Under the pieces are notes generated by a model. It was given only the letters and a program-made list of their open reading frames with translations, made no database searches and had not been told where the DNA came from. Source: an uncultured Lachnospiraceae bacterium (GTDB lineage Bacteria; Bacillota_A; Clostridia; Lachnospirales; Lachnospiraceae). Taken from it: DNA of 64,000 nucleotides. The position numbers were made by a program, and so were the translations under genes. The stretch spans positions 22,815 through 86,814 of the forward strand of contig CANOBT010000004.1 in NCBI GenBank assembly GCA_947564305.1, in the 5' to 3' direction. Shown here in pieces: positions 3,807-4,316 of the stretch; position 1 is the stretch's first letter, and each line of letters opens with the position of its first letter.

Positions 3807-4085
3807 TTATTTGATTGATGGAAGAATCTTCTCTACGTCGCCGTGTGGTCTTGGGATTACATGAGTCGCTACCAGCTCGCCAAGTCTTCCTGCTGCTTCT
3901 GCACCGGATTCTACCGCTGATTTTACTGCACCTACGTCACCGCGTACCATAACAGTTACAAGACCAGAACCAATCTTCTCTGTTCCTACCAATACAACAT
4001 TTGCTGCTTTAAGCATAGTATCTGCTGCCTCGATTGATGCTACCAGGCCTCTTGTTTCTACCATTCCCAATGCTTCCTGTGACAT
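3807..4085 (-). CDS. Internal-start short form of the extended BMC-H (92 residues)
   Basis: The ATG at 4085-4083 in frame with the long form is preceded by AAGGAGG at 4100-4094 with an 8-nt spacer, as good a site as any in the operon. Translation from here gives exactly a standard-length BMC-H protein beginning MSQEALGMVETRG, matching the paralogue's MAQQALGMVETRG start. The pattern is analogous to PduB/PduB', where one gene yields two shell proteins. Initiation at this site is inferred from sequence only. Confidence 0.65.
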   Translation of the reverse strand: MSQEALGMVETRGLVASIEAADTMLKAANVVLVGTEKIGSGLVTVMVRGDVGAVKSAVESGAEAAGRLGELVATHVIPRPHGDVEKILPSIK

Positions 4086-4316
4086 TCTTTTTTCCTCCTT
4101 CTGGATCGTCTGTTCTACATGAATCTCTTCTGCCTGCTGCGCCGCCTGCTTCACTCTCTGAACCGTCTTGGCAGGCGCTTTGGCTGTTTCCGTTTTCTTT
4201 GTGGATGCAGCTTTTGTTCCCGCAGTTTTCTTCGCTCTTCCTTTTTTTGCCGCGCCTTCTGCTTTTGAAGAATCTACATTCCTCTCTTCGCCTGCCGGCT
4301 TATTTTCATCTGCCAT
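3807..4316 (-). CDS. BMC-H shell protein with a 77-residue Lys/Ala-rich N-terminal extension
   Basis: The C-terminal 92 residues are a canonical BMC-H hexamer subunit (ALGMVETRG start, pore segment TEKIGSGLVTVMVRGD, HVIPRPH end), about 85% identical by eye to the protein at 4709-4984. The first 77 residues are low-complexity and basic (repeated KK, AK, TKK; then a Gln/Glu-rich stretch). I place the start at the ATG at 4316, which has AAGGAGG 8 nt upstream; the in-frame GTG at 4322 is too close to that site. A second perfect AAGGAGG site precedes an internal ATG at 4085, so a short shell-only form is probably also made. The basic tail could bind nucleic acid, cargo or neighbouring tiles; that is inference. 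Confidence 0.9.
   Translation of the reverse strand: MADENKPAGEERNVDSSKAEGAAKKGRAKKTAGTKAASTKKTETAKAPAKTVQRVKQAAQQAEEIHVEQTIQKEEKRMSQEALGMVETRGLVASIEAADTMLKAANVVLVGTEKIGSGLVTVMVRGDVGAVKSAVESGAEAAGRLGELVATHVIPRPHGDVEKILPSIK
4094..4100 (-). promoter_or_regulatory. Internal Shine-Dalgarno for the short BMC-H
   Basis: AAGGAGG on the minus strand inside the coding region of the extended BMC-H, 8 nt from the internal ATG at 4085. The surrounding codons read QKEEKR, so the site is embedded in the junction between the basic tail and the BMC domain. Confidence 0.65.

Follow-up and report, generated by a model that had tools for sequence, protein, structure and literature searches.

Comparative evidence that one BMC-H shell-protein gene of a Lachnospiraceae microcompartment operon may yield both a tailed and a plain subunit

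In a 64,000-nucleotide stretch of DNA from an uncultured Lachnospiraceae bacterium (positions 22,815 to 86,814 of contig CANOBT010000004.1, assembly GCA_947564305.1; hereafter the window), a gene for a bacterial microcompartment (BMC) shell protein of the BMC-H type carries, well inside its reading frame, a second start codon with a ribosome-binding site of its own, and this arrangement is conserved in almost every tailed relative that we compared. We suggest that a single mRNA is translated from both starts, ATG 4316 giving a BMC-H with a disordered N-terminal tail and the internal ATG 4085 giving a plain subunit; that selection on RNA preserves the internal ribosome-binding site, whose letters the long form translates as Lys-Glu-Glu; that the ratio of the two sites would set the number of tails per hexamer or facet; and that the tails may make up a sparse external fringe affecting the placement, spacing or clustering of the organelle, in the manner proposed for PduK. 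To this reading as a whole (two starts, plain and tailed subunits, and an external disordered tail affecting placement or spacing) we give a probability of about 0.6. Comparison supports the conserved internal site and, in close relatives, constraint on the tail as protein; from these we infer the two products, their mixing in hexamers, the outward course of the tails and their function. The relevant elements are as follows.

3807..4316, minus strand: long form, a 77-residue tail plus BMC-H, 169 amino acids (BMC domain at residues 82-157; tailed homologues exist)
3807..4085, minus strand: putative short form, a plain BMC-H of 92 amino acids starting at the internal ATG 4085
4325..4331, minus strand: long-form Shine-Dalgarno (SD) sequence AAGGAGG, 8 nucleotides (nt) before ATG 4316
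4094..4100, minus strand: internal SD sequence AAGGAGG, 8 nt before the in-frame ATG 4085; in the long form its letters open the codons for Lys-Glu-Glu
4086..4316, minus strand: tail-coding segment of 77 codons, rich in Lys, Ala, Glu and Thr

The product is a BMC-H by its match to PF00936 (103 bits against a cut-off of 24.5, a single BMC domain), and it would be expected to form hexamers, as do relatives of PduA whose structures have been solved (3ngk, E 3.4e-36). The placing of AAGGAGG 8 nt before both ATGs, pointed out in the initial annotation, was confirmed on the minus strand. The first of these sites (4331-4325) overlaps the TAA (4332-4330) of the BMC-H gene upstream, which is an ordinary arrangement. 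Could the second be a chance match? The pattern AAGGAGGN{5,10}ATG (AAGGAGG-N5..10-ATG) occurs six times in the window against 1.37 expected, a count reached in 1 of 100 shuffles, and the other five matches sit, on reading of the open reading frame (ORF) lists, at ORF starts (that at 9426, codon 10 of a listed ORF, is probably where this ORF really starts), so that only 4085 lies well inside a gene. Among the other in-frame ATGs of the tailed genes described below, just 1 of 248 has GGAGG 4-11 nt upstream (in locus L123, where it is probably the gene's real first start). Chance is ruled out by the shuffles and by these 248 ATGs.

The relatives came from a homology search in which 8000 candidates were scored and the best 120 listed, from 80 genome-contig loci kept out of at least 576 confirmed stretches, and from further loci mostly of one family, in which 113 of 397 genomes matched and the DNA of 75 loci was read (30 + 45, one of the 30 duplicating another locus). 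Loci L001-L158 and the window together gave 279 distinct BMC-H core copies, exact repeats being collapsed. Of these, 122 precede PduL (the 'slot genes'; a stricter PduL motif gave 58), 62 of them having an in-frame upstream start that yields a tail of at least 20 residues and 60 having none. With 11 tailed copies for which no PduL motif was found downstream, the set comprises 73 tailed genes (the window, 33 genome-contig loci and 39 loci of further genomes), reduced from 75 by the removal of L052 (masked bases) and L076 (a probable G+C-rich artefact). Genes were selected by the tail and not by the internal site; a stricter filter that demanded an upstream SD left 56 copies (55 without L076). 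Two of the 73, L053 and L016, resemble chance extensions, and removal of the 12 genes with a weak upstream site or an aromatic-rich tail left a subset of 61. Stop counts in the other frames were set aside, since frame 0 is held open by selection. A tree was built from 132 cores; with 16 of its 129 inner branches starred it is a weak tree, though every site compared was scored on it.

The initial annotation had asked whether tailed relatives also retain the internal AAGGAGG-ATG. They do: the ATG is present in all 73 genes, and GGAGG stands exactly 8 nt upstream of it in 72, which gives these genes the conserved in-frame start with its own SD that characterizes two-start shell proteins of the PduB/PduB' kind. 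The sole exception, L050, has AGGAG slightly farther upstream, so a shifted start may persist there; its upstream start is doubtful too. Among 54 genes whose cores differ by at least 15%, the codon for Glu at -4 (counted from the internal ATG) is GAG in 54 and the spacing is 8 in 53, and in the 61-gene subset both hold in 61 of 61. The claim that one gene gives tailed and tailless subunits thus survives, as a comparative inference.

It might be argued that only the long form is made, and that conservation of a Lys-Glu-Glu-Lys-Arg-Met peptide yields the internal AAGGAGG as a by-product. The junction is indeed well conserved as protein: among the 120 best-listed homologues, of which 119 were scored (P0020 was left out), KE[ED] is found in 115 and the Met in 117 (it is missing from P0062 and P0075). 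The codons tell against this, however. The Glu at -4 is GAG in 73 of 73 genes, whereas elsewhere in the same tails GAG makes up 108 of 356 Glu codons (30%). Codon -5 is Lys as AAG in all 65 genes that have Lys, and in the other eight it is Thr, Arg, Glu or Gln as ACG, AGG, GAG or CAG, the third G being kept; codon -3 may be Glu, Val, Asp or Lys, with G as its first base in 72 of 73. On the tree no third-base changes are needed at codons -5 and -4, as against 11 and 7 at codons -2 and -1 (scored for AAN and AGN codons only, a few of these changes being nonsynonymous). Moreover, 37 of the 60 untailed slot genes likewise have GGAGG 8 nt before their start, with no long-form codon there to conserve. 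Codon usage and the third-base changes led us to reject the by-product explanation, and the idea that the long form is the only product is very hard to credit. As the nucleotides (the G's, the GAG and the third bases) are kept where amino acids and tails vary, the junction is most simply read as a start site maintained by selection acting on RNA.

The two starts had been described as equally strong. For the window gene this stands, pairing with the anti-SD being worth -12.1 kcal/mol upstream and -11.7 kcal/mol internally. Across the set it does not: the means over 73 genes are -7.8 kcal/mol upstream and -11.8 kcal/mol internally, and the internal site is the stronger in 70, the window being among the three exceptions. 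In most relatives, then, the bulk of the product is probably the short form.

Is the tail, then, translated at all? If only the short form mattered, the upstream ATG would be little used and the 'tail' would be a leader that is open in frame by chance. The dominance of the internal site just described is in keeping with this, as are the lack of a tail in 60 of the 122 slot genes and the 12 of 73 genes in which the upstream start or the tail is doubtful. Against it, comparison of the window with close relatives shows the tail more conserved in its amino acids than at synonymous sites, the proportions of synonymous (pS) and nonsynonymous (pN) differences being 0.73 and 0.19 for L085, 0.72 and 0.22 for L087, and 0.60 and 0.22 for L002; 50 of the 73 tails begin with MA[EDSGA]; and in the window the upstream SD matches the internal one in strength. 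The contrast between pS and pN shrinks for distant pairs, where the alignment is unsure, and the pooled values for 278 tail pairs (0.74 and 0.39) include many distant, poorly alignable pairs and are not relied on. Given the constraint in close relatives, the tail is probably translated, and a gene serving for the short form alone seems quite improbable. That both forms are made is, on this comparative evidence, very likely.

Several points nevertheless weigh against the reading that we favour. The upstream sites are often weak, as their mean pairing indicates, and the doubtful starts and tails already mentioned count here also; for the window gene, the costs of opening the mRNA favour neither start clearly. 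Since so many slot genes have no tail, it cannot be essential to such compartments. A second core copy lies within 2.5 kb upstream in 71 of the 73 tailed genes (in the window, at 4709..4984), so that a tailless tile is already supplied; our guess is that a need to dilute the tails best explains why the internal start has been kept all the same. An AlphaFold2 model gives predicted local distance difference test values below 50 at residues 1-48 and 59-68, but the model as a whole is poor (mean 56.5, from 52 relatives), too poor to show the orientation of the tail, for which it was not used. Lastly, the placement role is proposed by analogy.

The tails are of low complexity, mostly basic, 21-109 residues long, and rich in Lys, Ala, Glu and Thr; that of the window contains 15 Ala, 14 Lys, 10 Glu and 7 Thr among its 77 residues and has a net charge of +6. 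They align well only inside the window's subgroup. As regards what they might do, the initial annotation had offered binding of cargo, binding of nucleic acid, or anchoring of the compartment, and of these anchoring or placement appears to fit best. BMC-H termini are reported to lie on the outer side of the shell in a review (PMC6787980) and at a concave pocket (PMC5534457), the convex side facing the lumen in the GRM2 type of compartment (PMC6971018); with termini so placed, the tails would form an external fringe. This orientation, the absence from the tails of a cargo-type helix, and the precedent of PduK together favour external placement or spacing, a function that we regard as plausible, at somewhat less than even odds.

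Both forms might instead be made with the tail as a luminal anchor, tying the shell to the enzyme core like the N-terminus of PduB. PduB/PduB' is the nearest two-form shell gene, residues 1-37 of PduB are reported to bind core to shell (PMC9132943), and no PduB-family match over the cut-off lies inside the operons with tailed genes, the nearest being about 13 kb away. However, residues 1-22 of PduB are a predicted amphipathic helix (PMC12108088), whereas a hydrophobic helix of the cargo type was found, by our own criterion, in 0 of 66 scored tails; all five cargo termini of the operon have 6-7 hydrophobic residues in 15. The argument rests on hydrophobicity, since the hydrophobic moment by itself does not separate tails (mean 0.41; window tail 0.56) from cargo termini (0.40-0.56). 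The reported outside position of BMC-H termini speaks against an anchor as well, and together with the missing helix disfavours the binding of cargo. Nor was there any trade-off with PduB over 45 genomes: PduB was found in 8 of the 25 genomes picked for a tailed gene and in 5 of the 20 picked for the lack of one (9 of 26 and 4 of 19 when one 'untailed' genome that also holds a tailed copy is moved). The tailed gene as a replacement for PduB was rejected for want of this trade-off, and a luminal anchor seems unlikely. In the genomes of L086, L085, L088, L089 and L087, the contig with the tailed operon also bears, on the other strand and about 13-45 kb away, a full PduB-family gene, and no PduB match over the cut-off lies closer.

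A further possibility, which would be a special case of the external reading, is that both forms are made and that the basic tail binds nucleic acid, as a tether to the nucleoid or to RNA. Sixty-six of the 73 tails are net positive (up to +12), and 64 remain so without their last five residues; relatives of the window share the stretch TAKAPAKT-VQRVK. Yet six tails are net negative and one is neutral, the motif P[AS][KR] occurs in just 25 of 73, and Glu accounts for 13% of tail residues. A universal polycation tail was rejected on these charges. Nucleic-acid binding may apply to some members but not to all, and as an account of the tail it is doubtful. We presume a resemblance of the tail to those of H1 or HU.

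The distribution of tails also offers a possible history. Tail state on the tree requires 21 changes, at least four of them forced by well-supported branches; the pattern is patchy, and gains and losses are not distinguished. Our reading is that upstream stretches open in frame were repeatedly gained or lost across a ribosome-binding site that was already there, and that the letters of this site would have become a Lys-Glu-Glu linker. Taken further, and tentatively, since we think it rather less likely than its alternatives taken together, Lachnospiraceae and their neighbours may have a dosage-encoded fringe: sparse external disordered tails, their density set by the two ribosome-binding sites of one gene, repeatedly captured across an existing SD that has since served both as linker codons and as start signal, with presence, length and charge as tunable placement traits. 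One homologue, P0034 (222 amino acids, on one contig), is a natural in-frame fusion of the upstream BMC-H of the 94-residue type, a short tail and a tailed BMC-H; it keeps the internal Met and resembles a tandem BMC.

How does the gene compare with known systems? In PduB/PduB' of the Salmonella Pdu compartment, too, a second in-frame start gives two forms of a shell protein, the long one with a 37-residue N-terminal extension that is missing from PduB' (PMC9132943); the initial annotation, which had PduB/PduB' without such a tail, needs correction here, although the extension is of another kind. PduB itself belongs to the PduB family of BMC-T proteins, and its extension is a predicted amphipathic helix plus linker that binds the core (PMC9132943, PMC12108088), whereas the present tails lack such a helix and vary in length and sequence; the window gene has a single BMC domain, with no PduB model among the NCBIfam matches (of protein P0001). 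M58 and M35 of CcmM, in the beta-carboxysome, likewise co-assemble as two forms, but CcmM is a core scaffold and not a shell tile, and the part confined to its long form is a folded domain (PMC8580825). PduK, a BMC-H of the Pdu system, has a flexible extension that is proposed to project outward from the concave side and to govern where the compartment lies, but this extension is C-terminal and comes from a separate gene, and no second start is mentioned in the sections covered (PMC9132943). The window gene has an extension as well, its side being taken from the papers, our own model being poor. A further case is Cphy_1182 from the GRM5 locus of C. phytofermentans, a BMC-H directly before PduL whose match to PduA was limited to residues 73-161 in a 2013 report; an N-terminal excess of about 72 residues seems likely, in keeping with a tail like the present one; that report, in the parts covered, does not mention a second start (PMC3557285), and the likeness is one of description, not of DNA. 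A 2021 catalogue of BMC proteins records BMC-H extensions of up to 200 residues; these are most frequently C-terminal, and again the parts covered mention no second start (PMC8217296). In the open-licence literature searched, covered partly in main texts, we found no description of a two-start BMC-H. The gene may thus be seen as a variation on the theme of PduB/PduB' and of CcmM M58/M35, its nearest known counterparts, and the idea of two starts is strongly supported by sequence comparison.

The gene is the last BMC-H of its minus-strand operon and stands directly before PduL. From the 5' end the order is two BMC-H genes, a dehydrogenase (by reading), a glycyl radical enzyme, its activase, an aldolase-like and a DUF336-like gene (the latter by reading), an aldehyde dehydrogenase, an alcohol dehydrogenase (by reading), four BMC-H genes, PduL, a pentamer of the EutN/CcmL type, PduS-like and PduT-like genes and a DeoR-like regulator (by reading). 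The neighbours of most interest are these.

4330..4614, minus strand: BMC-H, 94 amino acids, directly upstream of the two-start gene, its stop overlapping the first SD
4709..4984, minus strand: tailless BMC-H paralogue, 91 amino acids, with 77 identical residues over the 92-residue core
5044..5388, minus strand: BMC-H, 114 amino acids
3091..3738, minus strand: PduL-type phosphate propanoyltransferase (PF06130), next downstream
2831..3097, minus strand: EutN/CcmL-type pentamer, BMC-P (PF03319)
1478..2821, minus strand: PduS-like flavoprotein (Complex1_51K, RnfC_N, Fer4_17, SLBB)
933..1481, minus strand: PduT-like tandem BMC, BMC-T (two BMC stretches; TIGR02526 is the best match, below its cut-off)
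10351..12894, minus strand: glycyl radical enzyme, presumed propanediol dehydratase (TIGR01774)
14309-14587 and 14649-15005, minus strand: two further BMC-H genes that open the operon on its 5' side, past the glycyl radical enzyme; AAGGAGG precedes the start of the first as well

This looks like a glycyl-radical-enzyme microcompartment of the GRM5 kind. The glycyl radical enzyme and activase match TIGR01774 and TIGR02494 over the cut-offs, and the PduS-like and tandem-BMC genes correspond to PduS and PduT, which are reported in 57 of 57 GRM5 loci (PMC6325248). For the class II aldolase and lactaldehyde reductase of such loci there are aldolase family matches, none shown over an NCBIfam cut-off, and the alcohol dehydrogenase recognized by reading alone. 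From the type of locus, the enzyme would be expected to act on 1,2-propanediol. Elsewhere in the window, a large minus-strand ORF at 42396-45050 resembles, by reading only, an alpha-L-rhamnosidase, which might supply the compartment with rhamnose, and two minus-strand ORFs at 39463-41109 and 59732-60988 resemble, again by reading only, related AAA-ATPase-like proteins.

The usual count for shell genes is one tile per gene, whereas here a BMC-H gene of the PduA type appears to encode two, and selection can be seen at individual third codon positions. For annotation and engineering, this means that such genes, expressed as found, may yield mixed products. If the reading is true, these genes would offer a clear-cut system in which to test in-frame internal starts, a natural route to a controlled number of tags on the exterior of a shell, and a lead on how fucose and rhamnose compartments are placed in gut Firmicutes.
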